From: Rhodothermus sp.
Lineage (GTDB): Bacteria; Bacteroidota; Rhodothermia; Rhodothermales; Rhodothermaceae
NCBI GenBank assembly: GCA_015487635.1
Contig: WFPM01000189.1
Location: 1 to 37,666 of the forward strand
DNA length: 37,666 bases
Direction of reading: 5' to 3'
Shown piece by piece: positions 9,021 to 35,755 of the stretch (position 1 is the first letter of the stretch; each line of letters begins with the position of its first letter). The notes beneath the pieces were generated by a model, which was given only the letters and a program-made list of their open reading frames with translations, had not been told where the DNA came from and searched no databases. The position numbers and the translations under genes are program-made.

Positions 9021-9092
9021 TTATAGGTTGCCGGTCTTGCGGTTGCGCGTGCCGCTAAATCGCAACAACCATTTTCGGAAAGCTTTTAAGCA

Positions 9093-15203: not shown

Positions 15204-15213
15204 GGCTTGCGCG

Positions 15214-16877: not shown

Positions 16878-16884
16878 AGGCGCC

Positions 16885-18147: not shown

Positions 18148-18690
18148 GACTCAGAGAAATCGTTTGCAGTGAAAGCGTTTAGTTTGGATAAAGCAGTTTA
18201 GAACGTAATAACAGAAAAATTCAAGTCTAAGAACCGAGCCTTTTAATTGGAAGCGCTCCCACCTTGAAAAAAGGTCATGGTTTCTGTTGTAGCCTGTCAG
18301 CGCGCGGCAAACTTGTGGGCTGGTCGAGTGTCAGACCAAAGGGCCTTACTGCCTGCACCGAGGCAGTGTTGTCAGCCGGATTGTGTTAACCTCCGGAATA
18401 TCCGGATAGCCCCGTCGGTACAGGATGTCGGCCTCCTCACGCAGTTGCAGGGAAATGCACCCTTTGTAAAAAACAGGGTGCCGGGCTGATCGGGTTCCAG
18501 TGCTACGACACTACCGGCCAGCGCAAGGATTCGACCGAACGGCTATCGTACGAACGCCTGCGCGGCAGGACCATTGGCGTCCGCGCCCGGGGAAGGGGCG
18601 GCGGAACGGCCGGATTCTTACGATCTGCGCCGGGAACGAGCACGGCAGCACAAGACCGCCTTCCGTTCAGCTTCACGTCTTTCCTGGTGT
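18148..18690. other. Long intergenic region with MFS promoter side and a possible decayed frame
   Basis: About 540 bp without an intact gene. The first 120 bp are AT-rich and should contain the promoter of the MFS operon. A 7-bp-arm hairpin, ACTGCCT-GCACCG-AGGCAGT, lies at 18348-18367 and another, GCACCCT/AGGGTGC, at 18457-18481; neither has a T-tract in the right place. On the minus strand around 18348-18540, two overlapping open stretches read like protein (LREEADILYRRGYPDIPEV in one frame, LALAGSVVALEPDQPG in another), as if a gene had been split by a frameshift. I do not recognise the product. Confidence 0.35.
18248..18261 (-). promoter_or_regulatory. LacI-type operator candidate upstream of the MFS operon
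   Basis: TGGAAGCGCTCCCA is palindromic at 12 of 14 positions, with the AGCGCT core typical of LacI/CcpA-like operators. It is 100 bp upstream of the MFS start codon. A weaker site, TGAAAGCGTTTA, lies at 18170-18181, about 22 bp upstream of that start. Confidence 0.45.
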
Positions 18691-20424
18691 TCAGAAATTC
18701 GCCTGCGCCAGCGCCTCCAGCGGCCGGCCAGTCCCCTCCACCAGACGCACTTCCTGATCGGCTGCAAAAGGCCCGAAGCGCTCACGCAATCCGGTGGCCC
18801 ATTCGACGTCAACGGCGTCCACCTGCCGGGCCGCGCCCAGCCCGAACGTCAGCGTCTTTTCGGAGATGGCCAGGTAGCTGCCGCCGGTGCGCACCCGCTG
18901 CTCCATCCACCGGTCGCCGACCCGGACCACCACCTGGCTGCTAATACCCTGCGGGTGACTTTTCGTGCCGACGAGTTGCACACGCAGGTAGTGTCCGACT
19001 CCCTTCGTGTCGTTACGCCAGAGATGCACCGGCCCGCTGTTTTCGACTACCAGGATGTCCACCAGACCGTCCCGGTTGAAGTCGCCGTAGGCGGCGCCAC
19101 GCGCGACGATCGGCTGTGCCAGCACGCCTCCGGCCTTCGGGGCGACATCCTCAAAGAATCCGTAGCCGTCGTTCAGAAAAAGGTGCGGGGGCTGTGCGTA
19201 GGTGATGCCGTCCTGCACACGCTCGATCTCGTCCTGCACGTGCCCGTTCGCGGCAAACAGATCCAGGTCGCCGTCCAGATCGACGTCAAACAGGAACAGC
19301 CCGAAGGTCAGCGTCTGAAGGCTCTGGCGGCCGATCCTGGAAATGGCGGCCCGGTCGATGAACAGGTCATTGCCGAGGTAGCGGTAGACGCCGATCATCT
19401 CTTTGGAGAAGTTGCCCACGAACAGGCTGATCTGGCCGGTCGTGTCCACGACACCCGCATCGATCCCCATGCCGGCCCGAGCCTTGCCGTTCTCGTCGTA
19501 GGCCATGCCGCTGAGCATGCCGATGTCGGTGAACGTCCCGTCGCCGTTGTTGCGGTAGAGTTGGTCCGGCTGTGTGTCGTTGGCCACGACCAGATCGGGC
19601 CAGCCGTCGCGGTTGTAGTCGGTCTCGGCCACGCCCAGCGTCTTGCCCGGCGCCGGCACAAACCCGGCCTTTTCGCTTTCGTCGGTGAACGTCCCGTCGC
19701 CGTTGTTGCGGAAGAAGTAGGGTGGCACGCCCGTATAGGCTTCGGGCGTGCAGTAGCCCTTGGTTTTTTCGTCGAGTGAGCACCAGATGTCGGTTTCCGG
19801 CGTCCAGTAGACGTAGTTGCCCACGAACAGGTCCAGGTCGCCGTCGCGGTCGGCATCGAAGAAGATGGCCGAGCTGCTCCAGACCGAATCGCCGGCCACC
19901 CCGGCTTCGTAGGTCACATCCGTGAACGTGCCGTCGCCATTGTTGCGCAGCAGGATGTTCTTCCAGAGCGTGGTGAAGTACAGGTCTTCGTCGCCGTCGT
20001 TGTCGTAGTCGGCGGCCGTGATGCCGATGCCGTAGGCGTTGAGCTGGCCGAGCCCGGCCTCGTCGGTTACGTCGGTGAACGTCCCGTCGCCGTTGTTGCG
20101 GAAAAGCCAGAGCGGCCGCACCCAGTCTTTGTCGCTGTGGCCGGGCCAGACGCCACCGCCCACCAGCACGATGTCGAGCCAGCCGTCGCCATCATAATCG
20201 ACAAAGCCGCAGCCCGGCCCCATCGACTCTGGAAACCACTTCTGGCCGAAGGCGCCCGTCTCATGCCGAAAGGCGCCCAGCCCGGCCGCCTCGGTAACGT
20301 CGGTGAAGGCGATCTGCACAGCCGGCACCGCGGCGACCTCTTCCACCGGCTTCTGTAGTTGCTCGGCCCGTTCGCAGCCGACAAAAAGCAGGAGCAACAG
20401 ACTTCCCCAGAGTCGTTTCTGCAT
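18691..20424 (-). CDS. VCBS/FG-GAP repeat lipoprotein with ASPIC/UnbV domain (CRTAC1-like), VCBS3
   Basis: A 577-residue lipoprotein (lipobox LFVGC, Cys17). At least six beta-propeller blades carry calcium loops (DYDGDGWLD, DYDNDGDED, DADRDGDLD, DYNRDGWPD, DVDLDGDLD, DFNRDGLVD). The phrase FRNNGDGTFTD or a close variant occurs four to five times, and the matching DNA is nearly identical between copies. Residues about 480-565 are the ASPIC/UnbV domain (GHYLRVQLVG...LTFGLGAA..VD.V.V.W), the defining end of CRTAC1 proteins, whose bacterial function is unknown. It starts 2 bp after the cytochrome gene stops, so it is almost certainly co-translated with it. It is expected at the outer membrane or in the periplasm. 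Confidence 0.92.
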   Translation of the reverse strand: MQKRLWGSLLLLLFVGCERAEQLQKPVEEVAAVPAVQIAFTDVTEAAGLGAFRHETGAFGQKWFPESMGPGCGFVDYDGDGWLDIVLVGGGVWPGHSDKDWVRPLWLFRNNGDGTFTDVTDEAGLGQLNAYGIGITAADYDNDGDEDLYFTTLWKNILLRNNGDGTFTDVTYEAGVAGDSVWSSSAIFFDADRDGDLDLFVGNYVYWTPETDIWCSLDEKTKGYCTPEAYTGVPPYFFRNNGDGTFTDESEKAGFVPAPGKTLGVAETDYNRDGWPDLVVANDTQPDQLYRNNGDGTFTDIGMLSGMAYDENGKARAGMGIDAGVVDTTGQISLFVGNFSKEMIGVYRYLGNDLFIDRAAISRIGRQSLQTLTFGLFLFDVDLDGDLDLFAANGHVQDEIERVQDGITYAQPPHLFLNDGYGFFEDVAPKAGGVLAQPIVARGAAYGDFNRDGLVDILVVENSGPVHLWRNDTKGVGHYLRVQLVGTKSHPQGISSQVVVRVGDRWMEQRVRTGGSYLAISEKTLTFGLGAARQVDAVDVEWATGLRERFGPFAADQEVRLVEGTGRPLEALAQANF

Positions 20425-20426
20425 GG

Positions 20427-23147
20427 TTATCGATCAATGTTTTGCCAGGCCAGCATCGGCGCTATACGAAGCCGTCCGTTTTCATCCACGGGATGCAGCT
20501 CGTGCTCGTGGATGGGCTGCGCCTCGCGGTTGGCCATCGGGTGGCGATGTTTATACGGCGTGCTCCAGGCCGAAGCCTCCTCGTCCACCTTGTGATATTC
20601 GTAGCGGGCTTTCGCCGCCCGGAACTCCTCGGTGCGTCCCAGCGCCCCCAGCGCCAGCATCCGGTTATAAAGCCCACCCAGATCTTCCGGATCGATGGCT
20701 AGGATGCGGTCGAACCACCGGAGCGCTTCTTCATAGCGGCCCGAAAGGTAATGGATACGCCCGATCTCCTGCAGCAGAACGCGATCGAGCGGATAGCGTT
20801 CGACCACGCGCATCCACTCGGCCAGCGCCCGATCGTATTCGCCCTGTCGCTGGTAGATCTTGCCCCGGAAGTAGACAGTCTTCAGATAGCCGGGACGACG
20901 CCGTTCGGCTTCGGCAAGCATCTCCAGGGCCCGGTCGAGCTGACCCTCGGCAATCAGCACGCGCGCCAGGTTGATGGGACCCTCGGGATTGTCCGGGGCC
21001 AGACGGCTCACCTGCTCGAAGGCGGCCAGTGCCCGGCGCGTGTTGCCTTCCAGGAAAAGGCCGATGCCGTAGTCGTTCCAGCGCTCCCAGAGCGGCACGT
21101 TGCTTTCGGGCGGTTGTCCGGCCACACGGCGTGCCGTGGCGATGGTGGTGATTGGAAGTTCGGGGGCTGTGCGGTCTTCATCCAGAATCCAGCGGCGATA
21201 GTCCACCTCGGGCGTAGCGAGCGAATCAGGCTGGCCGGGCGCCACACGCCCCCGGAACGTCCAGTTATTGAAGTACCACTTGAACTTCCGATGTTTGAAG
21301 GCCACCGTGAGCTCGATAATCGGCCGGGCGGGCGGTACGGTGAAGCGGTAATGGACCGTACGGGCCGTGCCCGGATTGATGACGTTCACGTAGACCGGGG
21401 TGCGGAAGTCGTGCGGGTTGCGCTTGTTGGCCTCCTGGCCGACCCGATCCACGAACACAGCCCCGAAAAAGTGCGCGGTGGAATCAACCCGCCCTTCGTC
21501 ATCCAGCAGCCCTGAGGCCACCACGGTCTGCCCTTCGCGGTCACGTCCAATCACCTCCAGCCAGAGTTCGTTCGAGTCGTTCGTGCCGCCGGGCAGCGCA
21601 TGGCCCACCTTGCGGTTGCGCACGACCACGGTCAGCTCCACGCGATCGCCGGAACGAAGTACGGGCATGGGCTCGTCGGGCCCGTAAGTGTGGCCGTTGA
21701 CGCGCACCAGAAAGAGATCGACCGTGGCGATGGAGTCCTGCAGAAATGCCTGCGTGGCCCGGAGCTGCTCGTCGTGTCCTTTGAGGAAGGGCAGTGCCGT
21801 GTTGGCGGCCAGGAAGCGGTGACTGCGCACGAAGCCTCCGTCGTTGCCCTGGTCGTCGGAGGGCACCAGCGGCATGTGGCAGTCGATGCAGGTGCGCGGC
21901 TGCGCCGGCAGGTAGAACGATCGCACCGTGTTGCCCGAGACGCCGCTCATCTGCCAGGCGTCATACTCATTCTGACCACGAAGCCAGCGATAGTAGTTGA
22001 CCGCGGGCGGCAGCCCTACTTTGTGGCAGGTGCTGCAAAACTGCTCGGTGCGGTGCACGGGGCGAAGCATGGCCTCCCGATGCGGCTCCGGCTTGGCCCG
22101 GATGAGCTGGCGGTGCAGCCATTGCCCCACCGGGTTCGTGCTTCGGGCAAAGGGATATTCGTCGGGCTCGGCGATCACGTAGCGACCGTTTCCGCGTAGA
22201 TCGCGCAGCCCCGTAATGGCGTGGCATGCCAGACAGGTGATCCCCTCGTGGGCCGTCCAGTGCGTGGTGTCGAGCGGTATGCGGTGGCCGAAGCGCCCCG
22301 AAAAGAGCATGACCGGATCGTGGCAGGAGGCGCACCAGCGGGCGGCTTCTACCGGCCGGCGTTCCAGCATGTATTCGATGGAGCGCCGGTAGTACGGATT
22401 GTTGAACGAAGAGAAATGATGGGCCGAGGCTTCCCACTGGGCATAGATGTCGGGATGGCAACCGGCCTGTCCACAGGTTTTCGAGCCGGATAGCGTGGCC
22501 TCCTTGAAAAAGCCCTCATGCGCCAGGAGCGCTTCGGAAGCGGCCAGCGGATTTTCGTTGCCGGTGTCGAGGTAGACTGGATCGGGCTGTTTGAGCCAGG
22601 GCACCAGGAAGAAGGCGACCGCAACCACCACGCCTGCGCAGAACGTCAGCGTCAGCGGGTGGCGCAGGACCTGTCCCCGACGCAACGCGGTCAGTCCCTC
22701 GGGCAGTAGAAAGCGGAAACGGACGCCCCGTTTGAGCGACACATGCACGAGAAAGCCCAGCAGTGCAGTGAACATGCTCACCACGTGGAGCGTCAGCAGC
22801 ACGCGCCGGTTCAGCGTCGCCCCTCCCCAGAAGAGCAGGACGCCGCTCACGAGTAGCACTACCATAGAGAGCGCCGTAAACACCCCGGCGACCGTCGCCC
22901 GTAGGTTCCAGCGCAGCGGCATCGTACGGATATGTGCCGGCAGAAACAGCAGGAACGGTACGATCAGCAGCAGGCCGAGTCCGACGTGCAGCAGCACGTT
23001 GCTCATGTAGACGAGCGCCGTCGAGCGATCGAACAGCACGAGCACCAAGCTGTTGAGCAGCATCACCAGAAAGCCGCCCAACAGGATGCTCACGAGCCGG
23101 CGCTGTCCGGCAGGCAGATGAAACAGCCGTTTACGCGGGCGAGGCAT
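20427..23147 (-). CDS. Membrane-anchored pentaheme cytochrome c with TPR domain
   Basis: A 906-residue protein. Five hydrophobic helices occupy about 18-186; helix 2 has His54 and His72 and helix 4 has His121 and His135 (HX13H, the cytochrome b spacing), so the membrane part may bind two b hemes. Five covalent heme sites follow: Cys225-Cys230-His231 (CX4CH, unusual), then CXXCH at 272-276, 305-309, 371-375 and 420-424. A beta-rich region (about 470-680) and TPRs (about 710-860) complete it. The c-heme and TPR parts should face the periplasm. Inference: electrons pass between the quinone pool and a periplasmic partner, possibly bound by the TPRs or by the VCBS lipoproteins encoded on both sides. 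Confidence 0.88.
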   Translation of the reverse strand: MPRPRKRLFHLPAGQRRLVSILLGGFLVMLLNSLVLVLFDRSTALVYMSNVLLHVGLGLLLIVPFLLFLPAHIRTMPLRWNLRATVAGVFTALSMVVLLVSGVLLFWGGATLNRRVLLTLHVVSMFTALLGFLVHVSLKRGVRFRFLLPEGLTALRRGQVLRHPLTLTFCAGVVVAVAFFLVPWLKQPDPVYLDTGNENPLAASEALLAHEGFFKEATLSGSKTCGQAGCHPDIYAQWEASAHHFSSFNNPYYRRSIEYMLERRPVEAARWCASCHDPVMLFSGRFGHRIPLDTTHWTAHEGITCLACHAITGLRDLRGNGRYVIAEPDEYPFARSTNPVGQWLHRQLIRAKPEPHREAMLRPVHRTEQFCSTCHKVGLPPAVNYYRWLRGQNEYDAWQMSGVSGNTVRSFYLPAQPRTCIDCHMPLVPSDDQGNDGGFVRSHRFLAANTALPFLKGHDEQLRATQAFLQDSIATVDLFLVRVNGHTYGPDEPMPVLRSGDRVELTVVVRNRKVGHALPGGTNDSNELWLEVIGRDREGQTVVASGLLDDEGRVDSTAHFFGAVFVDRVGQEANKRNPHDFRTPVYVNVINPGTARTVHYRFTVPPARPIIELTVAFKHRKFKWYFNNWTFRGRVAPGQPDSLATPEVDYRRWILDEDRTAPELPITTIATARRVAGQPPESNVPLWERWNDYGIGLFLEGNTRRALAAFEQVSRLAPDNPEGPINLARVLIAEGQLDRALEMLAEAERRRPGYLKTVYFRGKIYQRQGEYDRALAEWMRVVERYPLDRVLLQEIGRIHYLSGRYEEALRWFDRILAIDPEDLGGLYNRMLALGALGRTEEFRAAKARYEYHKVDEEASAWSTPYKHRHPMANREAQPIHEHELHPVDENGRLRIAPMLAWQNIDR

Positions 23148-23161
23148 TGGTTACCATATGG

Positions 23162-23764
23162 TTAGGAACCACGTCGTCGTTCCAGTTCGGCCAGATACTC
23201 CCGCAAGGTATTATCATTTGGGCAGTAGCGCAAGGCCTGGAGCCAGACCTGACGGGCGGCTTCGTACTGCTTTTGCGAGGCCAGCGCCATGTCCGGGTTC
23301 GGCCAGACATCGGCCGGCGCCATGCTGCCTCGGCGCTGCCAATCGCAGCACTGCATGGAACGTATCGCCCAGCAGCACAAGATCGGCGTGATCGATTCAC
23401 CGCCCGAAGTGATTCGGATCCCAGAAAATGGCAGCCCTTTCCTTCCTTGCACGCTTCCTCCATACCGTTCGCCTGAATCGGCCAGTTTATGCCGAACCGA
23501 ACACGCTGACTCTGAGGGACTTGCAAGCTCACCTGACTGATTTTGCCGGAGCATTCGCTCCAGAAAGACCGACCGCGCTTCCCTGCCCATGTGCCTCAGC
23601 AGAGGGCTACCCCAGATTGGGGCCCGATGGATGAGCGGGCTTTTCTGCCTCCCTCGTAGCAAATGCAAGCTACTTTTCCACAGCCACACTGCAGAAGCTG
23701 ACGTCCAAAGTTCGAGGGCGCCGATCGCCTGAAGAGAGGGCGCGGAGAAACCACCGATCTGCAC
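23162..23764 (-). pseudogene. Decayed TPR-protein gene
   Basis: The last 42 codons (from an ATG at 23290) read as a clean TPR end: MALASQKQYEAARQVW, then LQALRYCPNDNTLREYLAEL. Upstream in the same frame the text stops looking like protein (many Trp, Cys, Arg, Ser). A neighbouring frame contains DLVLLGDTFHAVLRL just before the TPR, as if one or more frameshifts had split a longer gene. It sits between VCBS2 (2 bp away) and the cytochrome gene (14 bp away), so the operon still reads through it. It could instead be a genuine 42-residue peptide; I think a remnant more likely. Confidence 0.45.
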
Positions 23765-23766
23765 TG

Positions 23767-26700
23767 CTACCGTTGGTCGTCAGGCGCCACCAGCACTTCG
23801 GGCGTTGTATCATTGCGCGCGGCCAGCAGCCAGCGGGTGCCACCTGGACGCCGGAGCCAGGCCAGATGACGTACCTGCCCACGCAACACCAGCCCGGAAA
23901 CGCCCGGCCGCAACGGCGTGAATCCTCCCTGTTCGGTCTGCACCAGCACGACGCCCGGGCTGTGGCCGTAATGACCCAGGGCCGGGTTGGCCTCGTCAAA
24001 GTTGCCCGCCGCGATCACATCCGGCCGGCCATCTCCGGTTACGTCGTCAATCTGCAACGCGCGCACCGGAAACCACTGCGCCGGTTCGGGAAGTGGCTGC
24101 AACGTGAAATGCCCCTGGCCGTCGTTTTCGGCCCGGACCGATGCAAAAGTACGGGCCAAGCGCACCGACGCCTGTCGCACTGTCTCTTCCCCGAAGAGTT
24201 CTTCAAGCGTACGGGCTCCCCAGGCGTGGTAGCTTTCAAACCGCCGCCCCAGCTCCGGGAAACGCCGTGCCAGTAGATCGATCGTCGCCACCGGGTAGGC
24301 CCGCTTGCCCTGGTAGGCCACGATCACCGGATCGGACTGACCATCTCGGTCGAAGTCCTGCAGATAGAGCTTCACCGGTTGCCCGGGTGTTGCCTGCAGC
24401 GAAGCGTTCAATCCCAGATTCCCGGCCACAAAGTCCAGATCGCCGTCGCCGTTGAGATCGGCCGCACGCACGCTGAACCACCAGCCTTCGGTGTTTTCCA
24501 GGACGGTCGGCACCAGACGGCCGTTCGCCTCCTGGAAAAACAGCGTCAGCGGCATCCATTCGCCCACCACCAGCAGATCCAGACGTCCGTCGCCGTTGAA
24601 GTCGCCCCAGGCAGCGTCGGTCACCAAGCCGATGTGGGCCAGCGCCGGTGCACGGGCTTCGGTGATGTCTGTAAAGGTACCGTCGCCCCGGTTCTCCAGC
24701 AGGTAGCTGCGCGGCGCTTCGCCGTAACGGCGGCTCACGACGCGCCCGCCCACGAACAGATCCGGATCACCATCACTGTCATAGTCGGCCACGCGCACGC
24801 AACAACCGTTCGCAAACAGATCCGGCAGCGCCTGCTCGTCGCGGCGGAACTGCCCGTGGCCGTCGTTCCGGTAAAGCCGATCGCGCAGCGCCTCGGCCCG
24901 CCCCCACCATTCGTTGCCGGCGCTGACCACATACAGGTCCAGGTCGCCGTCGCCGTCCGCATCGAAAAACGCGGCATCCACATCTTCATAGCGGCTTTCG
25001 GCCTCCCAGAGCGCTTCGTTGGTCGGCCGAAACGTCCCGTCCGGTTGCTGCACGAGCAACCGGGCCGGCTGCCACTTGGCCCCGCCCAGAAACACATCGT
25101 CCAGCCCGTCGCCGTTCACATCGCCCACGGCCAGCGCCGGTCCCTCACGCGAGAGTCGATGGGGTTGCAGTGGCTCGCGGGTAAAATCCACAAAAGCGTT
25201 CTCTTCGTGCCGATAGGGCAACGCGTCGGGAACTTCCCGGAAAAGCGGCGGGGGCGGCGTCGGCGGACGATAGCGTCCCCGTGCCTCGGCCTGGCGGAAG
25301 ATCAGCGTCTGATCGGCCGCTACATTTCGGCGCACCTCGTAACGACCATCAGGCCAGACCACCATCACCGAATCCACCTGCGTATGGGGGCCCAACCCGA
25401 AGTGCAGTACGGGCTCGACCGATGAGAGCCAGCCGCGCACGGGCTGCTGCTCACGGAGCTGCAGGCTGTCGCCATAGTGCACGGTCACCCGGGCGCCAAT
25501 GCCCCACCGGTTCATCCCCTCGCCTTCCAACACCACCTGCAGGTAGTGGGCGCCGGTGCGCTCGCGTGTGTGGTTGCGGTACACGGCCGCAGGGGCGTTG
25601 ATCTCGCTGGTGACCAGATCCAGGTCGCCGTCGCGGTCCAGGTCCACATACACGGCCCCGGTCGAAAAGCCGGGCTGCCCCAGTCCCCACACCTGTGCCC
25701 GGTTCGTGAAAGTTCCGTCGCCGTTGTTGCGAAAGGCGAAGTTGGGTTGCGGCACCTGCGGCATGTGACGCAGCAGATCTTCCAGCAGCTCCGGCGTGAT
25801 GCCCCGCGCCAGTGCCTCCTGGATTTCGGGCTGTCCGACGTAGCGGATGTAGTCCAGATCGTTCGGCCGGTGGTAGATGCCATTTGTGACAAAGAGGTCC
25901 TGGTAGCCGTCGTTATCCAGGTCGGCCAGCAGCGCAGCCCAGCTCCAGTCGGTGGCGGCCACGCCGGCCCGAAAGGCCACGTCCACGAACTGCCAGGCGC
26001 CCAGATTGCGCAGCAGCACGTTATGGGGATACTGGGGATGGTAGCCGAACTGCCGCTTGCGTTGAAACAGTTCGAACGACTCCGGCCCGTCGGCCGTCTT
26101 GAAAATGACGGGATCGAAGGGCATCATGTCGAGCACGATCAGATCGGGCAGCCCGTCGTTGTCGACGTCGCCCGCATCCACGCCCATCGATGCCTGCGAG
26201 GTATAGGCCGTGGCCGTGCGCAGCACATCGGTGAAGGTGCCGTCGCCGTTGTTGCGGTAGATCCGGTCGTCTTCATGGAAGTCGTTGGCCACGTACAGAT
26301 CGGGCCATCCGTCCTGATCCAGGTCACTCACCACCACGCCGAGCCCGTAGCCGATGAGTCCGTCCACGATCCCGGCCTCGGCCGTCACCTCCACAAAGCG
26401 CCCGCCGTCGTTGCGCAGCAGTCGGTCGCTGGTATTCGGATCGAAACGGCGGCGCAGCGGCTCGGCCGGACCGAAGCTCTCGTCGGTATGCAGTGCCCGG
26501 TTCAGCAGGTACAGATCCAGATCCCCATCCCGGTCGTAATCGAAAAAAACGGCCTGTGTGCCGTAGGCAGCGATGTCCAGCCCGAATTCGGCCGCCGCTT
26601 CGCGAAAGCGCGGGATGCCCGCTGCGTCCGGCCCCTGGTTCAGAAAGAGCTGGTTGCGTCCGGTGCGATTCAGGTAGTTGCTGAAGGTGACCAGGTAGAG

Positions 26701-27072: not shown

Positions 27073-27077
27073 GGCGT

Positions 27078-30000
27078 TTACCGTCGCACGACAAAAAATC
27101 GAGGCGTGTCGTCGTTACGGGCCACCAGAATCAGCGGGGGCCGGCCCGGCCGTGCCAGCTTCTGGATGTCCCGCACCTCACCCCGCACGAAAAAGCCGCT
27201 GTCGCGGGGCGTCACCGCCGTGAAGCGGCCGGTCCCGTCGCCCCTGAGCCAGAGGCCGTAAGTCGCTTCCATCAGGCCCAGACTGGTCTGCGCCCAGCGG
27301 AAGTTACCCCCGGCCAGCACGTCCAGGTGGCCGTCGCCGTCAAAATCATCCACCAGCAACCCGTAGAGCGGGGCCCATTGCGCCTCGGGCGGGAGTGGAT
27401 GCAGGCGGAAGCGTCCCGCTCCGAGGTTTTCAACGTACAGACTGCGCAATTCCCGGACTTCCAGCACAATGGCTCCTTCCAGTTCGGCCGGCTTCAGGAA
27501 GTCCTCCAGCATCATGCGGGCATAGGCGGCATGTGAGGGAATACGGCCGCTCAGGAAGGGCAACTGGCCGAGCACTTCCCGGCGCAGGTTCAAGGGACGA
27601 TGCCGGAGACCGACCTCCGTGCTTTCGGGACGGGCCAGCAGGTGGTCGGCAAAGCCGTTTCGGTCGAAGTCTTTCACGAAGAGCCGGAGCGGACTGTCCG
27701 GCGAGGCTTTCAGCGGCGTGTTCAGGCCCAGGTTGGTGGCGATGAAGTCCGGATCGCTGTCGCCGTCGAAGTCGGCCACGGCCAACCGGTGCCAGATGCC
27801 CGAGGTTTCAGCCAGATCGGACAGCTCCCAGCGTTCCAGCCGTCCACCGCCGGCGTTCCTGAAAATCGTGAGCGGCATCCACTCACCCACGATGAGCAGA
27901 TCGAGCCGGCCGTCGCCGTCGAAGTCGGCCCAGGCCGCATCGGTAACCATGCCGATGCGGGACAGGCCGGGCGCCAGCGTTTCGGTAACGTTTGTAAAAT
28001 GCCCGCGGCCGTTGTTCTGCAGCAGGAGGCTTTCAGGCGCCATGCCGTAGAACCAGGGTTCGATGCGGCCGCCGACGAACAGATCGATGTCGCCGTCGCC
28101 ATCGTAGTCGGCGGCCGCGACGGGTCCGCCGCTGCTACGAATGCGGGGCAGGCGATCCGTCGCCTTCCGGAAGCGCCCGTGGCCGTCGTTCAGGTACAGC
28201 CGATCCTGGAGCGCCGGTGCCCGGGGTGCGTAGGCGTTGCCGCCGCTGACCACATACAGGTCCAGATCGCCGTCGCCATCCGCATCAAAAAACGCGGCAC
28301 CCAGGTCTTCCGAGAGCGCATCGGCAGCAAACAGTGCCTCGTTGGTGCGCACAAACCGACCGTCGGGCTGCTGCACGAAGAGCACGCCGGGAAAGCCTTT
28401 GGCTCCGCCGATGTAGAAATCGTCGCGGCCATCGCCGTTCACGTCGCCTATGGCTACCCGGGGTCCTTCGCGCGAGCGCATCCAGGGCATGAGTCCTTCG
28501 CGCAGAAAGTCCACAAAGTTATCCTCCTGATGCCGGTAATCGAGTGCCACCTGGGCCGTCACGTCGGCAAAACGCGGCGTTGCCCGCGTCGGCAATAGCG
28601 GCAGCTCCGGCTGCCCTTCCACGGCCTCTTCCTGCCGAAAAACCAGCCGCCGGTCGGCCGCCACGCGGCGGCGCACTTCGTGGCGGCCGTCGGGCCAGAC
28701 CACAACCACGGCATCGACCGTGTTGTGCGGGCCCAGCCCGAAGGTCAGCACCGGATCCACCGACGACTGGAAGCCCCGGTTGGGCATCTGCTCCTGGTAA
28801 AAGCGCTGATTTCTGACCAGCACGGTCACCTGCGCGCCGATGCCCTGCGTGTTGGGCGGCGTGCCGATCAGCTGCACCTGCAGAAAATGCCCGCCGGATT
28901 GCTCACGCGCCTGGTTGCGGTAGACGCGGACCGGACCGTTCACATCGTTGACGATCAGGTCCAGATCGCCGTCACCATCCAGATCGCCGTAAGCGGCTCC
29001 GCTGGAGAAGCCCGGCCGCGCAAGTCCCCATTTGCGCGCACGGTTCGTGAAGGTGCGGTCGCCGTTGTTGTGGAACGCGTAGTTCGGCAGTGGATGTGAG
29101 GGCATTCTCCGGATCAGCGCCAGGTAATCGACCCCTTCCTCCCGGATCACCGCCCGCATCGTCTCTTCGGCCGAAAGGTACTCAAGGTAATCCTGATCGA
29201 TTACATCCCAGAAGATGCCGTTGGCTACGAAGATGTCTTTATAGCCATCCAGGTCGGCATCGAAGATCAGCGCGGCCCAGCTCCAGTCGGTGGCGGCCAC
29301 GCCGGCCCACATGCCGATTTCGCTGAAGGTACCGTCTCTGTTGTTATATTGGAGCGTGTTGCGGGTAAACTGGTGGTAGAAGCCATTTTCCACCTTGGTC
29401 TGATAGAGTTGCCAGCCCTCGAAGGTGGTGGTGGTTTTCAGGCGGACATCGTCTTCAGGCAGCATGTCCGTCACGAACAGCTCCGGGAAGCCGTCGTTGT
29501 CGATATCGGCCGCATCGGCACCCATGGACGAGAGGCTGATCGACGCCATCGCGTCTTCCAGCACCTCCCGGAAGGTGCCATCCCCCTGGTTCAGGTAGAG
29601 GTAATCGCGTTCAAAAAAGTCGTTGGAGACATAGATATCGGGCCAGCCGTCGCGATTGAGGTCGGCCACGGTCACGCCGAGCCCGAAGGCGATCTCCGGT
29701 CCGTAGATGCCGGCCTCGGCGCTGACGTCCACGAAGCGGCCGCCGTCATTGCGGTAGAGGCGGTCGCCCCCCTCGTGATTACGTTCGTGGCGCGTGTTGC
29801 GAAAGTCCAGGCTGATGATCGGCCGCATAGAGTTGTTCAGGACGTAGACGTCCAGGTCGCCATCCCGGTCGTAGTCGAAGAAGGCGGCATGGACCGAAAA
29901 GCCCGTATCGGCCAGGCCCAGTTCGGCCGCCGCTTCCCGGAAATGCGGGATGCCGTTTTCGTCGGGCCCCAGGTTCAGATAGAGCTCGTTGGCACGGAGG

Positions 30001-30440
30001 CTGTCAGCAAACGGTCCGGCATGGCATACATACAGATCGGGCCATCCGTTGCCGTCCACGTCGGCCACAGCCACGCCGGTGGTCCAGGGTTTTGTGCCGG
30101 CCACGCCGGCCGTTTCGGTGACGTCCTCGAAGCGCCAGTTGCCTCGGTTCAGATAGAGCCGGTTGGCGCTCTGGTTGGCCGTCAGGAAGACGTCCAACTG
30201 TCCGTCGCCGTTGAAGTCGGCCAGTCCGACCCCTCCCCCGTTATAGAAGTTGCGGTAGATGAAAACGTTGAACTCCTGCGTTTCGCGCAGGCGGTTTTCG
30301 AAGCGGATGCCTGTCTGCCGGGGGGATAGTTCTGCAAACAGCGCATCGGCGGGCACGCCGGGCTTGCGACACCCCCCCAACACCAGCAACCCCAGCAGGC
30401 CGAGGTTCCGGAAACCGCGCAGCAAGAAGCGATGCATCAT
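27078..30440 (-). CDS. Large VCBS/FG-GAP lipoprotein with ASPIC/UnbV domain, VCBS1
   Basis: A 1120-residue lipoprotein (lipobox VLGGC, Cys24) and the first gene of the VCBS-cytochrome operon. Propeller 1 occupies about 65-510 (DFNGDGQLD, DVDGNGWPD, DYDRDGDLD, DLNRDGWPD, DLDGDGDLD), the ASPIC/UnbV module about 530-610 (GIGAQVTVLV...LTFGLGPHNTVDAVVVVWPDG), and propeller 2 about 650-1110 (DVNGDGRDD, DADGDGDLD, DYDGDGDID, DFDGDGRLD, DFDGDGHLD). An ATG one codon downstream (30437) is an equally good start. No strong Shine-Dalgarno is visible. Its leader lies inside element B, whose terminal repeat begins 6 bp from the start codon. Confidence 0.92.
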   Translation of the reverse strand: MMHRFLLRGFRNLGLLGLLVLGGCRKPGVPADALFAELSPRQTGIRFENRLRETQEFNVFIYRNFYNGGGVGLADFNGDGQLDVFLTANQSANRLYLNRGNWRFEDVTETAGVAGTKPWTTGVAVADVDGNGWPDLYVCHAGPFADSLRANELYLNLGPDENGIPHFREAAAELGLADTGFSVHAAFFDYDRDGDLDVYVLNNSMRPIISLDFRNTRHERNHEGGDRLYRNDGGRFVDVSAEAGIYGPEIAFGLGVTVADLNRDGWPDIYVSNDFFERDYLYLNQGDGTFREVLEDAMASISLSSMGADAADIDNDGFPELFVTDMLPEDDVRLKTTTTFEGWQLYQTKVENGFYHQFTRNTLQYNNRDGTFSEIGMWAGVAATDWSWAALIFDADLDGYKDIFVANGIFWDVIDQDYLEYLSAEETMRAVIREEGVDYLALIRRMPSHPLPNYAFHNNGDRTFTNRARKWGLARPGFSSGAAYGDLDGDGDLDLIVNDVNGPVRVYRNQAREQSGGHFLQVQLIGTPPNTQGIGAQVTVLVRNQRFYQEQMPNRGFQSSVDPVLTFGLGPHNTVDAVVVVWPDGRHEVRRRVAADRRLVFRQEEAVEGQPELPLLPTRATPRFADVTAQVALDYRHQEDNFVDFLREGLMPWMRSREGPRVAIGDVNGDGRDDFYIGGAKGFPGVLFVQQPDGRFVRTNEALFAADALSEDLGAAFFDADGDGDLDLYVVSGGNAYAPRAPALQDRLYLNDGHGRFRKATDRLPRIRSSGGPVAAADYDGDGDIDLFVGGRIEPWFYGMAPESLLLQNNGRGHFTNVTETLAPGLSRIGMVTDAAWADFDGDGRLDLLIVGEWMPLTIFRNAGGGRLERWELSDLAETSGIWHRLAVADFDGDSDPDFIATNLGLNTPLKASPDSPLRLFVKDFDRNGFADHLLARPESTEVGLRHRPLNLRREVLGQLPFLSGRIPSHAAYARMMLEDFLKPAELEGAIVLEVRELRSLYVENLGAGRFRLHPLPPEAQWAPLYGLLVDDFDGDGHLDVLAGGNFRWAQTSLGLMEATYGLWLRGDGTGRFTAVTPRDSGFFVRGEVRDIQKLARPGRPPLILVARNDDTPRFFVVRR

Positions 30441-30445
30441 GCCTA

Positions 30446-30929
30446 ATATGTGATCGCTGATTTACCGGTGCATGATGTGGCCCCCATCCCGTGTGCCGGG
30501 CATAGTCCGGCACATACGACAGGGCAGCCACCGCGGTCCGCCCCTACTTGGTGGGGGCGTCGTCGTGAGTCTGGTAGGTGCCTCCTCTCTGCCCGAAGTG
30601 CGCGATGCCACCCCCCAACGCCGGCTTCCCGAATGTCGGCGCCGGCAACCAGCAGGAGCCACCCTCCCCCTCCCCCTTCCCCCTCTCTGGCAGGGAGGGA
30701 GAAGCACCTGAGGGAACGCCTCGACACTGCAACACGCGCGGGCGCCTGCCTCCACCGCCCGCCGTAGCCTGTAGACACCGCTCCCCCTTGTAGGAGGAGC
30801 TGGCCCGAAGGGCATAAGGGGGGCATGGGAGCCTCTTCCGAGGCTGCCATGATGCGCGTGCGATCAGCGCCCGAAGGGCATAAGGGGGTCATGGGAGGCC
30901 GCTGCACCATGATATCCCGGAAATCATAT
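30446..30929. mobile_element. Element B: 484-bp MITE-like element related to element A
   Basis: The right end (30903-30929, starting TGCACCATGATATCC) matches the right end of element A at 23 of 27 positions. The left end (30446-30472, ending GGTGCA) is a weaker inverted copy (17 of 27). Inside are: hairpin TGTGCCGG/CCGGCACA at 30492-30514; the degenerate CTCTCTGG-CAGGGAG stem; AGCCTC-TTCC-GAGGCT at 30830-30845; and a 29-bp direct duplication (30803-30831 and 30869-30897, one mismatch) beginning GCCCGAAGGGCATAAGG. That duplication partly explains why B is longer than A. No transposase frame. It lies between the susD terminator and VCBS1. Confidence 0.58.
30803..30897. repeat. 29-bp internal direct repeat in element B
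   Basis: Copies at 30803-30831 and 30869-30897 differ at one position, 66 bp apart start to start. Between them is the AGCCTC-TTCC-GAGGCT hairpin. The second copy, not the first, has GGGGGTCATGGGAGGCCG leading into the terminal repeat, as in element A, so the first copy is probably a duplication. Confidence 0.7.
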
Positions 30930-30951
30930 GAATCTCGAACAGCTTTGCCCC

Positions 30952-31000
30952 AAAGAAAACACCGCCGGAGCGCTGCTGCAAGGCAGCACCCCGGCGGTGT
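30952..31000 (-). terminator. Intrinsic terminator after susD
   Basis: Reading the minus strand downstream of the susD stop: ACACCGCCGG, a loop with an inner GCTGC/GCAGC stem, then CCGGCGGTGT followed by TTTCTTT. The 10-bp GC-rich stem plus T-tract is a classic rho-independent terminator. It implies that at least part of the susCD transcript ends before the VCBS operon. Confidence 0.8.
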
Positions 31001-31024
31001 GAGGTCGCACTTCTTATTGGACCA

Positions 31025-32647
31025 TTAATAGCCCGGATTCTGAACCAGGTTCGGATTGGCGTCGAGTTGCTGCTGCGGAATGGGAAGCAACAACACTTTC
31101 GGATCACTTTGCGGCTTGAACTGGTAGGCCCGCGTGAACTTGCCGTGGCGAATCAGGTCCTGCCGCCGCTTGGCTTCCCAGGTAAATTCAAAGAGTCGTT
31201 CATTCAGGATGGCCTCCCGCATCGCCTCCTTGGTGGGATAGTCGGCGAGACTGATCGGCTTGTCCGGCTCGAAGACCCGGTTCCGTACAGCGTTGATCAG
31301 ATCCACCACCTCCTGCGTTGGGCCGTTCAGTTCATTGAGCGCTTCGGCCTTGATCAAATACATCTCGGGGAGTCGGAACCAGGCATAGTCGTTGCCGTGG
31401 TCCCCGCCCACGTGGTTCGGGTCAGGCCCGTACTTGAGCACGCGCACGCCCTCGTATTCGGTCGCATTGAAGATATTCTGGATCTCCGGGGTATAGACCA
31501 GCGGGTTGCCTGCTCGGTCGGTCAGCGGCTCGCCCTGCGAGTAGCACTGGCGTCCGATGCAGTTGCCGCGCGGCTCGGCATACTGCTGTCCGACCAGAAA
31601 GATGGTTTTCCGCAGGTCGTCGTCGTCGAACATGTTGTAGGTTTCGGCCAGAATCGCGTGGCCGTTCCAGGGCGACGGCTCCAGTTGGAAATAATGGAGC
31701 GTCCGCATCTGGAAGTTCATCCCCAGCCCGGGTTCGGGCAGATGCTGCGTGGCAAAGATAATCTCCGGTGAGTTTTCGTTGTTGGGCAGGAAGTTCTGGA
31801 ACCATTCCTCCCCTTCGGCCAGCCGGAAATAGCCGGAGTTGATCACGTTGTCGGCGTGCTGGACGGCTGCCTGGCAGGCATTCTGCCCGCCGCTGGTCTG
31901 CACATCCATGCAGGAGTTATAGCCGTTCGGATCCAGCTCAGTGCTGTTCTTCGTGAAGACCCCGGCATTCAGGTACAGGCTGGCCAGCAACGCTTCGGCC
32001 ACCCACTTTGTTACGCGCCCCGGCAGCGGAGGCGTCTCCGGCAGGTTATCACGGGCAAACAGCAGTTCACTTTCTACGAAGCGGAAGACTTTGTCTCGCG
32101 GCTCCGTGGCCGGCGGGTTATTGGGGTCTACAACAAACTCATCATCGCCCACAATAGGCACATTGCCGAAAAGATCCAGCAGGAAATAGTAATAGAGAGC
32201 CCGAAGCAGGCGCACTTCGGCTTCCAGTTGTGCCTCGTTGGGTGCTTCAATTTCCTGCAAGGTCTGGAGCAGCCCGTTCGCACGGGCAATGCCGGTATAC
32301 AGGTCCACCCAGGCGCCATTGAAGTCCACCTGCGTGGGCTGGAAATTATGTTCATGCAGGTTAAGCCAGCGGCGGTCGTCGAACCAGTCCTGCCCGCGCG
32401 TCGGCACCACCGTCTCATCAGTGGTGACCTGGCTCATCGTCCAGTAGCTCCACTCCAGCGCCCGCAGTTGCGCATAGATGGGTGCCAGGGCGGCGGTGAT
32501 TTCCTTGTCGGTTTTGTAGAACTTATCCGGCGTGATCACCGAGAAGGTCTCCTCACTCAGATCCGTACAGCCGCTAAGCAGCAGGAACGCCAGTAAGGTC
32601 CATCCTGCAACCCGCCGCCCGTTGCGATTCCAGCGAATCATGGCCAT
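31025..32647 (-). CDS. susD: SusD/RagB-family outer-membrane substrate-binding lipoprotein
   Basis: A 540-residue lipoprotein (lipobox LLLSGC, Cys27), the lid that closes over its SusC transporter. It has the SusD helical TPR scaffold: LYTGIARANGLLQTL, EVRLLRALYYYFLLDLFGNVPIV, the conserved FRLPEMYLIKAEALNELNG and, near the end, NERLFEFTWEAKRRQDLIRHGKF. Four extra cysteines (NSC...NAC and RGNCIGRQC) are unusual for the family and may form disulfides. It starts at ATG 32647 (or 32641), 51 bp after susC. The ligand cannot be deduced; the pair could import glycans, peptides or other oligomers. Confidence 0.94.
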   Translation of the reverse strand: MAMIRWNRNGRRVAGWTLLAFLLLSGCTDLSEETFSVITPDKFYKTDKEITAALAPIYAQLRALEWSYWTMSQVTTDETVVPTRGQDWFDDRRWLNLHEHNFQPTQVDFNGAWVDLYTGIARANGLLQTLQEIEAPNEAQLEAEVRLLRALYYYFLLDLFGNVPIVGDDEFVVDPNNPPATEPRDKVFRFVESELLFARDNLPETPPLPGRVTKWVAEALLASLYLNAGVFTKNSTELDPNGYNSCMDVQTSGGQNACQAAVQHADNVINSGYFRLAEGEEWFQNFLPNNENSPEIIFATQHLPEPGLGMNFQMRTLHYFQLEPSPWNGHAILAETYNMFDDDDLRKTIFLVGQQYAEPRGNCIGRQCYSQGEPLTDRAGNPLVYTPEIQNIFNATEYEGVRVLKYGPDPNHVGGDHGNDYAWFRLPEMYLIKAEALNELNGPTQEVVDLINAVRNRVFEPDKPISLADYPTKEAMREAILNERLFEFTWEAKRRQDLIRHGKFTRAYQFKPQSDPKVLLLPIPQQQLDANPNLVQNPGY

Positions 32648-32698
32648 GGTATGCTGAACGTTTGGTCGTCTGCGTCCTTTGCGAGTCTATCTGTCTGG

Positions 32699-35600
32699 TT
32701 AGAAGCCCAGGCTGATACCCAGCGTAAAGCTCCGGGCCCGCGGGTACTGGGCATAGTCGATGCCCAGCGAAGCCAGGCCGGCATTGATATTAACTTCGGG
32801 ATCGTACCCCGAGTAGGGCGTGATCACCAGCAGGTTCTGGCCGGTGACGTAGATGCGGGCCCGCCGCACATAGCGGCCCCAGAGGCCTCCCAGATTCCGG
32901 AAGGTGTAGCCGATCGTCACATTGTCTACCCGGAGGAAGGAGCCGTCCTCGATCCAGCGCGAGGAGTAGATGGCCGGCTCATCCAGGGCATCCGGATCGT
33001 CAAGAGCCGCTTTCAGGAAGTTCTGGTTCTGGAGCACGGCGCTCTTCGTCTGGTAGACCAGCGCCGTGTTGTTGAAGACGTCGCGGCCCTGTTCGCCCCG
33101 GATAAAGATGTTGATGTCGAAGTTGCCCCAGTAGATGTTGGTCCGGAAGCCGTAGGTGAAGTCCGGCTGGGCATTGCCGATGATCGTGCGGTCGGCGTCC
33201 GTGATCTGACCATCACCGTTGAGGTCGCGGAACTTCTGACGACCGTTTTCTACGCCTTCGAAGATCCAGCCATAGAAGGTACCCACTGGCTCTCCGGGAA
33301 TCAGACGCTGGGCGAACGTACCGGACTGCCCGCGTCCGCTGACCACACCCGTTACGATGAACTCATGGGGTCCAAGGCTGACCACTTCGTTTCGGTTCGT
33401 GCTAAAGACCAGCCCCAAGAGCACGCTCAGGTTAGGCCGGTCAACGGCCAGTGCGTCGAGCGACAGCTCGAAGCCCCGGTTGCGCGTCTTACCGATGTTT
33501 TCGATCCGCGTAGGCACCGGCGCCGGCTGGGGCACGGGAATTTCCAGCAACAGATTGCTGGTATTCTTGACATAGTACTCGATGGTACCGGAGAGCTTAC
33601 CATTGAACAGGTCGTAGTCCAGGCCGATGTTGAATGTGGCCGTTTCCTCCCACTTCAGATCCGGGTTTGCATAATTAATCGGTGCAAAGCCGGTATAGGC
33701 CGTCTGGTTAAAGACCGCCTGCAGGTCCTGCCGGGCGCCGAGCTGTGCCAGCGACAGGTAGTTGCCGATTTCCTGGCTACCCGTGATCCCATAGCCGATC
33801 TTCAGGCGCAGGTCGGTGAGCCAGTCCAGTCCCTGCATGAAGGGCTCGGCGCTCAGCCGCCAGGCCCCGGAAATAGCAGGGAACAGGGCCCATTTGTTGC
33901 CTTCCCCGAAGCGTGAGGAGCCATCGTAGCGAAGCACGCCGGTCAGGTAGTACTTATTCTGATAACTGTAGTTAAGGCGTGTAAAGAAAGAAACCAGCCG
34001 GCTTTTCTCTTTGAAGGAGAACGTTCCTTCTTTAACGAGCTGAGCTCCGGCCTGTACTGCGTTATATGAGGTCGCATCGGTTACGTAGTCGCGACCCTCC
34101 ACGCCGAATTCTTCGGTCATGTACTCGTTGAACTCATAGCCGCCCAGCAACTCCACACTGTGGACCTGGGCGAACATGTTGCGGTAGGTCAGGTAGCTCT
34201 GGAAGGTCAGCGACGAATGCTCTCGGTTGCGCAACAGGGCGCGTCCGCCGAACTCGGCACCGGTCGGGTTCTGCTGCGGGAAGTACTGGCGGCGGCTCGC
34301 CTGCGCTCGATCGGCCCCAAAGTTCACCTTGGCCGTCAACCCGGGCAGCAGATCCAACTCGGCGGCAATGTTGCCCAGAGCCCGCGTGGTCTTGGCAATG
34401 TCTTCAACCTGTTCAGCCATAGCCACCGGGTTGCGCACCGAAGTGCGTCCCTCGGCGACTTCAAAGTACCCATCTGTGGCCGGCGTACCATCCAGGTTGG
34501 TCTCCGAATAGATTGGATAGGTCGGGTTCATCTGGAACACATTCGAGAGCACACCGCCCTCAAAACCGGCCGTCTGGTTATAGGGCAACAGATCGTCGAA
34601 CTGGAACGAGCCGGTCAAGTTGAGCTGCAGACGCAGCCGTCCGTCAAAGGCCTGGTGATCCGCATTCAGGCGGCCCGTCAGCCGCTCCAGCCCCGAATCG
34701 ATCACTTGGCCCTGCTGGTTCAAGTAGCTGACCGAGGCCCGGTAGCGGGTCTGGCTCGTACCGCCCGAAAAGGCCAGGTTGTGGAATTGCGTGATGGCCG
34801 TACGCATGACGGCCTCCTCCCAGTCCGTGTTGGCATTGCCCAGCACATCCCGGGCGCTGGGCGGCAGATTCCCGGCCTGAATCTGCTCTTCCACGAAACG
34901 ACGGTACTCCTCGCCGTTCAGCACGTCCATCTTCTTATAGGGCGAGGCCGCTGTGATGTAGGCGTCATAGTCCACCTGCAGTTGCCCCTGACGGCCTTTT
35001 TTCGTTTCAATCAGAATCACACCGTTGGCGCCACGCGAACCGTAGATCGCCGTGGCTGCTGCGTCTTTGAGGACCGTGATCGACTCAATGTCGTTCGGAT
35101 TGATCAGACTCAGCGGGTTACGCGGCGGAGGAGGTGCTCCGTTGACTCCGGCCCCCTGCGGCATGAGCGGCACGTTGTCAATGGGCACGCCGTCGATGAC
35201 GATCAGTGGCTCATTGCTGGCGCTGATGGAGGTGCCGCCGCGCAGCCGGATGTTCAGACCGGCTCCCGGTTCGCCGTTGTTCGAAATAATTGTCAGGCCG
35301 GCCACCCGCCCCTGCAGGAGCTGGTCCGGCGAAATGTAATTGCCCTGGTTGACATCGTCGGCGTTGATGGTGGCCACCGAGCCGGTCACGTCTTCACGCC
35401 GCTGCACCCCGTAACCGACCACCACGATTTCCTGCAGCACCTCGACGGTAGGCTGCATGCGCACGTTGATGACCGTGCGGTCCCCCACGACTTCCTGCAC
35501 CTGCTCGTACCCTACAAACGAAAAGACCAGAACCGCCTCGGGGCCGGGCACTTCGATCTGGTAGCGCCCCTCCACATCGGTGGTCGTTCCGGTCATGGTG

Positions 35601-35755
35601 CCCAGCACCACAATGTTAACACCGGGCAGCGGTTCGCCCGTCGAGGCGTCGGTTACCGTCCCGGTCACCGTGCGCGGTTGCCCGATGGCAACGCTTACAC
35701 CCCAGCATCCAAGCAAAATTCCCAGCCAGAAGCCGCGTGGAAGCAACGTTCTCAT
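32699..35755 (-). CDS. susC: SusC/RagA-family TonB-dependent outer-membrane transporter
   Basis: A 1018-residue protein. The start is the ATG at 35755, which is followed directly by a signal peptide (LPRGFWLGILLGCWGVSVAIG); the frame stays open to 35893 but that part is promoter DNA. After the signal comes the CarboxypepD_reg-like domain (VTGTVTDASTGEPLPGVNI...), the linker EIVVVGYGVQRREDVTGSV, the plug (about 130-250, with LIVIDGVPIDN and ATAIYGSRGANGVILI) and a 22-strand barrel ending in FTLGISLGF. It imports a substrate delivered by SusD using TonB energy. A Bacteroidota promoter and LacI-like palindromes lie upstream. Confidence 0.95.
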   Translation of the reverse strand: MRTLLPRGFWLGILLGCWGVSVAIGQPRTVTGTVTDASTGEPLPGVNIVVLGTMTGTTTDVEGRYQIEVPGPEAVLVFSFVGYEQVQEVVGDRTVINVRMQPTVEVLQEIVVVGYGVQRREDVTGSVATINADDVNQGNYISPDQLLQGRVAGLTIISNNGEPGAGLNIRLRGGTSISASNEPLIVIDGVPIDNVPLMPQGAGVNGAPPPPRNPLSLINPNDIESITVLKDAAATAIYGSRGANGVILIETKKGRQGQLQVDYDAYITAASPYKKMDVLNGEEYRRFVEEQIQAGNLPPSARDVLGNANTDWEEAVMRTAITQFHNLAFSGGTSQTRYRASVSYLNQQGQVIDSGLERLTGRLNADHQAFDGRLRLQLNLTGSFQFDDLLPYNQTAGFEGGVLSNVFQMNPTYPIYSETNLDGTPATDGYFEVAEGRTSVRNPVAMAEQVEDIAKTTRALGNIAAELDLLPGLTAKVNFGADRAQASRRQYFPQQNPTGAEFGGRALLRNREHSSLTFQSYLTYRNMFAQVHSVELLGGYEFNEYMTEEFGVEGRDYVTDATSYNAVQAGAQLVKEGTFSFKEKSRLVSFFTRLNYSYQNKYYLTGVLRYDGSSRFGEGNKWALFPAISGAWRLSAEPFMQGLDWLTDLRLKIGYGITGSQEIGNYLSLAQLGARQDLQAVFNQTAYTGFAPINYANPDLKWEETATFNIGLDYDLFNGKLSGTIEYYVKNTSNLLLEIPVPQPAPVPTRIENIGKTRNRGFELSLDALAVDRPNLSVLLGLVFSTNRNEVVSLGPHEFIVTGVVSGRGQSGTFAQRLIPGEPVGTFYGWIFEGVENGRQKFRDLNGDGQITDADRTIIGNAQPDFTYGFRTNIYWGNFDINIFIRGEQGRDVFNNTALVYQTKSAVLQNQNFLKAALDDPDALDEPAIYSSRWIEDGSFLRVDNVTIGYTFRNLGGLWGRYVRRARIYVTGQNLLVITPYSGYDPEVNINAGLASLGIDYAQYPRARSFTLGISLGF

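Follow-up and report, generated by a model that had tools for sequence, protein, structure and literature searches.

A Rhodothermus gene row made of two units apparently joined by deletion: a SusCD unit with double propellers and a multiheme cytochrome paired with a CRTAC1-type protein

Does a tight row of genes on one strand amount to one system? The question is raised by a stretch of 37,666 nucleotides from Rhodothermus sp. (contig WFPM01000189.1, our C189, of assembly GCA_015487635.1, 3.03 Mb in 233 contigs), referred to here as the window. On its minus strand lie susC, susD, two lipoprotein genes for double propellers (A and B), a remnant of a tetratricopeptide repeat (TPR) gene, the gene for a membrane-bound multiheme cytochrome and a gene for a CRTAC1-type protein. 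The original prediction took SusCD, the double propellers and the cytochrome to be parts of one system. We found that the gene row is two neighbouring units, apparently brought together by deletion, and not one conserved cassette. Unit 1 is SusCD with the double propellers, and unit 2 is the cytochrome with its CRTAC1-type partner. The new part is unit 2, the cytochrome-CRTAC1 pairing of which recurs in distant bacterial groups.

Two units, apparently joined by deletion

The same region was read in the window and in six other genomes of the genus. In G001 to G005, the gene order was SusC-SusD-propeller A-propeller B, followed by a TonB receptor, a protein of about 740 aa, a PorV/PorQ-family protein and a TPR lipoprotein, and then by cytochrome-CRTAC1-TPR. 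The PorV/PorQ-family identity was checked on the G001 copy, and the 740-aa protein of the same genome matched a type IX secretion system (T9SS) tail below the cut-off. Propeller B and the cytochrome were separated by 8.2-8.4 kb in four genus genomes and by 10.6 kb in G001, but by only 619 bp in the window and 553 bp in G006. Both units were on the same stretch in all seven genus genomes, and in five of the seven other genes filled the 8-11 kb that separated them. A further genome (G016) has both units on a single contig, at a distance of some 350 kb.

The window aligned to the locus of a near relative (L037) up to position 23375 and resumed with another locus (L038) from position 23807, and the stretch between the two positions occurs once in the genome. 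The 3' remnant of the TPR lipoprotein gene (23162..23375, minus strand) aligned to L037 and matched TPR_11 with an E value of 6e-4, which is below the cut-off. The TPR remnant of the original prediction is real, though it is no more than the 3' end of a gene found complete in relatives; a 200-aa TPR open reading frame (ORF) was rejected as a gene, since only its 3' part aligned to the near relative's intact gene. Judged from these alignments and from the neighbourhoods in relatives, the remnant is the scar of a loss that took the TonB receptor, T9SS-tail-like and PorV-family genes and the greater part of the TPR gene. A tree of the cytochrome gene placed the window as sister to G002 and G005, which are intact, and G006 as sister to the intact G004, placements that make two separate losses the simplest reading. 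Thus, the window and G006 apparently lost the intervening genes independently. Both are draft assemblies, so that a wrong join is possible, but the decayed remnant speaks for a real loss.

On this genus comparison, the one-cassette reading was rejected. An integrated system, in which SusCD would import a polymer fragment, the three propellers would bind or process it and the cytochrome would take or give electrons, is suggested by the closeness of the window genes on one strand and by the shared stretch in all seven genus genomes. At least four other genes stand between the units in five of those seven, however, and the units are far apart in G016. A row of SusC, SusD, CRTAC1, cytochrome, GH97 and GH101-like genes in Snuella sedimenti (L084), behind sigma-factor-like and FecR-like genes identified by eye, also fits an integrated system; its CRTAC1 is short and not a double propeller, and it is the only one of the 80 best cytochrome loci described below to have SusD by profile search. 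On the side of unit 1, all 20 Bacteroidota double-propeller loci read outside the genus lacked a multiheme protein, and in the window a terminator-like hairpin follows susD. The full gene set splits in relatives; the cytochrome-CRTAC1 pairing is kept in 46 of the 80 best relatives.

The hairpin (30959..31000, minus strand), with an 18-pair stem and a T run, lies directly 3' of susD. It has the longest stem among 20 terminator-pattern matches (shuffles gave 15.9, standard deviation 4.2), and its folding z was -4.9, compared with -5.7 and -4.2 for the corresponding stretches of L038 and L060. The 584-bp gap between susD and propeller A contains this hairpin and element B, a 484-bp dispersed repeat (30445..30928, no strand assigned) that stands outside the system. 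Element B had 71 matched stretches in its own genome, itself included. G002 and G005 (loci L038 and L057), the genomes nearest to that of the window, do not have it at the corresponding position. An ORF at 30443-30910 was rejected as a gene, as nearly all of it is inside the repeat. A non-coding repeat of the same type is also found at window positions 8791-9021.

The cytochrome and its CRTAC1-type neighbour

To our knowledge, CRTAC1/ASPIC proteins have no established function in bacteria, and none was found in the accessible portions of the open-licence literature. In the window, the CRTAC1-type FG-GAP/ASPIC protein (18691..20424, minus strand; FG-GAP_3 E 4.2e-43, ASPIC E 5.9e-12) is encoded 2 bp after the cytochrome gene (20427..23147, minus strand). 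Motifs and hydrophobic segments divide the cytochrome into a membrane part, a pentaheme c part with an immunoglobulin (Ig)-like part, and C-terminal TPRs.

The pairing was analyzed in the best 80 of 586 confirmed cytochrome relatives, a choice that favours the window's type, with taxonomic groups assigned from record titles. The pair test asked for a same-strand gene with at least three FG-GAP motifs within 700 bp of the cytochrome. A CRTAC1-type gene passed in 46 of the 80 loci, 44 times downstream and twice upstream only (L084 and L113), while 3 of 275 control genes more than 6 kb off in the same loci passed the motif test. The 44 downstream gaps were -4 bp in 18 loci, -1 bp in six, longer overlaps in six, 0-43 bp in seven and 157-615 bp in seven. 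Among these best relatives the pairing spans six phyla, with counts of 37/44 in Acidobacteriota, 3/4 in Gemmatimonadota, 2/7 in metagenome-assembled genomes of Rhodothermales or Bacteroidota, 1/1 in Snuella, 1/5 in Neomarinimicrobiota (4/5 within 5 kb), 1/2 in Calditrichota and 1/1 in Latescibacterota. Pfam found FG-GAP and ASPIC together in 42 of 42 scanned proteins (P0001 and 41 of 52 candidate neighbours, representing 41 of the 46 loci). The CRTAC1 cluster was present in 53 of the 80 loci, and the next families, ABC ATPase and short-chain dehydrogenase/reductase, in 10 and 9.

Across 60 related genomes, both genes were found in 31, the cytochrome only in one, CRTAC1 only in three, and neither in 25. 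Neighbourhood and co-occurrence thus agree with the earlier suggestion that the cytochrome and the CRTAC1-type propeller belong together. Elsewhere in the window's genome is a gene for a second cytochrome, which is divergent and lacks TPRs; it is followed by a CRTAC1 gene and then by a separate TPR gene. This order was found in five of five loci read for the second cytochrome, the TPR gene being Pfam-confirmed in one.

The single-propeller CRTAC1 matched cartilage acidic protein 1 (9etn) by sequence with E 1.7e-10. A Cys-x7-11-Cys loop was present in 37 of 42 cytochrome-linked CRTAC1 rows and is no clean mark of them, because 25 of the 38 unlinked CRTAC1s in the collected loci had it too. The N terminus of the window protein is lipobox-like by eye, yet it failed the lipobox regular expression; among linked CRTAC1s, 7 of 54 passed, with crude start sites, and no inference was drawn. 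In relatives, a second TPR lipoprotein gene lies 3' of CRTAC1. This gene was present in L037, L039, L041, L042 and L043, and the window retains a residue of it (18416..18690, minus strand), recognized in an alignment to L037 over 18416-23375.

The window cytochrome has five heme motifs, the first of which is CX4CH, and five hydrophobic segments. We aligned 35 rows from related genomes with the 80 best relatives, some genomes being in both sets. In these 115 rows, chosen for at least five heme motifs or from the cytochrome cluster, five heme motifs were present in all. Periplasmic His243, His356, His443 and His516 were likewise found in every row. Of the membrane histidines, His54 and His121 were present in 111 rows, His72 in 52 and His135 in 56. 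With four invariant non-motif periplasmic histidines for five c hemes, the distal ligand of one heme may be a different residue or may be missing. Nitrite reductase NrfA was rejected as an identity, as all five motifs end in CH, whereas the active-site heme motif of NrfA is CXXCK.

The structure of cytochrome residues 1-690 was predicted from 59 rows (13 of the 35 relatives and 46 of 60 diverse loci) with a pLDDT of 86 and a pTM of 0.84. In the model, an Ig-like domain with strands at 474-675 follows the heme part. The only Foldseek match at an E value of 0.001 or less was 5ze8 (E 1.2e-11, TM 0.64 by target length), which the cytochrome also matched by sequence (E 5.4e-6). An earlier fold from the 13 relatives had a pLDDT of 71 and a weak heme region, and found 5ze8 too, behind TPR proteins. 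The cytochrome TPRs matched the CcmH/CycH TPR model below the cut-off. At E values of 1e-60 or less, the cytochrome family was found in 27 of 395 Bacteroidota genomes, all of the window's own class.

Proposed function of unit 2

Taken together, these results suggest that unit 2, separate from unit 1, could be a quinone-linked electron-transfer module in which CRTAC1 is the substrate- or partner-binding subunit. We put the probability of this reading at about 0.47, a little short of even. A link of the cytochrome to the quinone pool, as the original prediction had it, is plausible from the membrane histidines. The membrane part would bind a b heme and exchange electrons with the quinone, presumably menaquinone; the five c hemes would carry electrons from the membrane part into the periplasm; and the cytochrome TPRs would dock CRTAC1, which would bind the substrate or partner.

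We think that the module more probably oxidises a compound in the periplasm or at the surface and hands the electrons to quinone, because some relatives have a flavin adenine dinucleotide (FAD) or pyrroloquinoline quinone (PQQ) dehydrogenase gene beside the cytochrome. An FAD_oxidored-type gene was directly upstream of the cytochrome in all six f15 Rhodothermales genomes (L047-L052) and was also found in four of the 80 loci (L078, L079, L081 and L082), which are partly the same genomes; one member was scanned. In L080 a PQQ-dehydrogenase-family gene comes immediately after CRTAC1, and in L154 one precedes the cytochrome by 249 bp. The FAD_oxidored-type gene has a twin-arginine start by eye and sits there where CRTAC1 is not adjacent; elsewhere in three f15 genomes, CRTAC1s were read behind TonB receptor-PorV genes.

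Several points weigh against the proposed module. Its membrane part had no Pfam match, and the Foldseek match to 5ze8 has a root-mean-square deviation of 8.6 over 509 columns. No CRTAC1 neighbour was found in Poribacteria (0/14), KSB1 (0/1) or Planctomycetota (0/1), and 34 of the 80 loci were without one, nine of them at a contig end. The co-occurrence gave a Fisher p of 1.5e-12, a test that ignores shared ancestry, and was scored at thresholds of our own choice (E 1e-20 and 1e-80). In G040 the cytochrome was present and no CRTAC1 was found at E 1e-80, and G007, G010 and G049 have CRTAC1 without the cytochrome. The cytochrome and CRTAC1 genes are intact and evolve under strong constraint, with pairwise dN/dS of 0.046-0.058 and 0.049-0.053, respectively, which speaks for the module, but these values average the time before and after neighbour loss. 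Overlapping genes show linkage and not that their products form a complex. Dehydrogenase neighbours of the FAD and PQQ types are few, and only two of four PQQ-family genes were close to the cytochrome on recheck.

On a broader reading, CRTAC1 propellers would ancestrally be substrate-facing subunits of quinone-linked multiheme cytochrome complexes in at least six phyla and would later have been recruited to SusCD and TonB/PorV surface systems. This we consider doubtful; if true, it would define an unrecognised class of respiratory module.

A role of CRTAC1 in assembling or scaffolding the cytochrome, through maturation, anchoring or bridging to the outer membrane and with no substrate contact, is unlikely. 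The overlapping reading frames of the two genes would suit such a role, as would the CcmH/CycH TPR model, which the TPR lipoproteins of L043 and L037 matched above the cut-off and the cytochrome below it. A CRTAC1-family gene in hydrazine-synthase-like clusters, described in the available part of PMC12758564, points the same way and counts for the electron-transfer module as well. On the other hand, CRTAC1s are also found behind TonB receptor/PorV genes at a distance from the cytochrome and, as double propellers, with SusCD; the fold is therefore not cytochrome-bound in general.

The cytochrome could instead act in the periplasm as a quinol-driven reductase in the service of TonB-dependent import, reducing an oxidised metal chelate or organic compound that the TonB receptor/PorV/CRTAC1/TPR operon imports. 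The TonB receptor-T9SS-tail-like-PorV order beside the cytochrome in five of the seven genus genomes, G011 (L246) and L080 is consistent with this, as are the T9SS-tail-like and PorV genes that, with CRTAC1 and TPR genes, directly precede the cytochrome in L105, L110 and L151. However, the window and G006 no longer have the TonB/PorV stretch but retain cytochrome and CRTAC1, and no such TonB receptor was among the neighbours in Acidobacteriota loci by a blunt test with one BLAST reference at E 1e-6. We regard this reductase as quite unlikely. An integrated system of both units, split as it is in the genus and beyond, is the least probable of the readings.

The partnership of CRTAC1 with one defined membrane cytochrome, found across phyla and often with overlapping frames, offers a handle on CRTAC1 function in bacteria. 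It makes testable whether CRTAC1 binds the cytochrome and what the pair oxidises or reduces. The window also illustrates that a striking gene row in a single genome can be a deletion junction, with halves that have separate histories.

Unit 1, neighbouring genes and known systems

The gene list, order, strand and gaps of the original prediction were borne out by the ORF list and the profile matches. The first gene of unit 1, susC (32699..35755, minus strand), encodes a TonB-dependent outer-membrane channel (TIGR04056, E 1.2e-255; Plug and beta-barrel domains), and its open frame extends to a TTG at 35893. It is separated by 51 bp from susD (31025..32647, minus strand; PF07980, E 3.3e-30), which encodes its surface lipoprotein partner. 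The double-propeller FG-GAP/ASPIC lipoproteins A (27078..30440, minus strand; FG-GAP_3 E 2.8e-87, ASPIC E 2.1e-21) and B (23767..27072, minus strand; FG-GAP_3 E 7.8e-90, ASPIC E 1.4e-24) are 5 bp apart and have 12 and 11 FG-GAP_3 stretches, respectively, and one ASPIC domain each.

Unit 1 is a nutrient-uptake unit of a kind common in Bacteroidota, and its propellers occupy the place where surface-binding lipoproteins usually are. In 118 Bacteroidota genomes, five of them from the window's own genus, a propeller A-like protein was found at E values of 1e-100 or less in 30. Outside the genus, 25 genomes had a double propeller, and 20 were read at one locus each. SusC and SusD were upstream on the same strand in 17 of the 20 (separated from the propeller by one or two ORFs in L216 and L232); L218, L234 and L235 were without SusCD. 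Propeller A matched the cartilage acidic protein 1 structure 9etn by sequence with E 4e-14.

Glycoside hydrolases of the GH65 and MGH1-like types were also found near double-propeller loci. In the window, an MGH1-like glycoside hydrolase gene (36493..37665, minus strand; PF22422, E 4.5e-10) lies upstream of unit 1 and is truncated by the window end; homologues of 866-932 aa are upstream of SusC in L058-L061 and not in L057. Between it and susC, positions 35939-36379 encode a 146-aa lipoprotein that is hardly more than a SusC-like plug domain, with homologues in three other genus genomes. Genes for proteins of about 440 aa were seen near double propellers in several Bacteroidota families (L217, L221, L222, L225, L228 and L234, the last without SusCD). 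All six were scanned; five were PAP2 above the cut-off, and that of L222 matched a vanadium chloroperoxidase domain below it.

Directly downstream of unit 2, positions 13869-18147 hold genes for a Gfo/Idh/MocA oxidoreductase, a 3-keto-disaccharide hydrolase, a protein of twin-arginine translocation type (by eye) and a nucleoside-H+-symporter-like protein, a group that also adjoins unit 2 in G003, G004 and G006. Penicillin amidase genes (one scanned) were found behind the pair in f14 genomes (L054, L056, L062 and L063), and an amidase-like family (by eye) in eight Acidobacteriota loci (L120, L126, L133, L139, L143, L145, L149 and L152), seven of which have it no more than 4 kb from the cytochrome. 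A recurrent operon was present in eight of ten loci (L239-L244, L246 and L248), the ten being chosen for their CRTAC1 matches or because they contain unit 2. It begins with a TonB receptor, a T9SS-tail-like protein and a PorV-family protein and continues with between one and three CRTAC1s and with TPR genes; in L245 the CRTAC1 gene is upstream, and L247 has no CRTAC1. Rfam and tRNA scans of the whole window gave no matches, nor did a search for a Bacteroidetes-type promoter pattern.

In the open-licence literature we found no described system of this make-up, as had been supposed. No paper was found there on SusD together with UnbV or with VCBS, and no description of the cytochrome-CRTAC1 pair in work on CRTAC1, ASPIC, PorV and multiheme combinations. 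The nearest known systems resemble the two units in part. Unit 1 shares with the SusCD/polysaccharide utilization loci of Bacteroidota the tandem SusC-SusD, lipoprotein genes after SusD and a glycoside hydrolase upstream, and differs in that its lipoproteins are double FG-GAP/ASPIC propellers of about 1100 aa. All three propeller proteins of the window have the FG-GAP repeats and ASPIC domain of cartilage acidic protein 1 (9etn), although they are bacterial and one is beside a cytochrome.

For unit 2, the available part of PMC12758564 describes hydrazine-synthase-like clusters in which, in clades I-III, a CRTAC1-family/FG-GAP gene stands alongside the alpha and beta-gamma genes, and the beta-gamma proteins of clade I have cytochrome c554 domains in addition; no role for CRTAC1 is given in that part. 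In clades I-III these clusters, like unit 2, combine multiheme cytochrome genes with a gene of the CRTAC1 family; they are unlike it in that the cytochromes are different and clade IV has no CRTAC1-family gene. The cytochrome itself is closest to the PHC family (Thermochromatium tepidum c552, PDB 5ze8; Geobacter ExtKL and Gsu2801; sPHC and lPHC of cable bacteria). According to the accessible text of PMC11976967, the c552-like cable-bacteria proteins, ExtKL and Gsu2801 form a pentaheme family with an Ig-like domain, with a heme arrangement that resembles an archaeal nanowire cytochrome; the fusions named there are to truncated hemoglobins, and the 5ze8 paper, cited there, says low-potential in its title. 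The terms tetratricopeptide, FG-GAP and CRTAC1 are absent from the text of PMC11976967. Like the PHC proteins, the window cytochrome has five c-heme motifs and then an Ig-like domain; unlike them, it adds an N-terminal membrane part with five hydrophobic segments, a C-terminal TPR array and a CRTAC1 partner.

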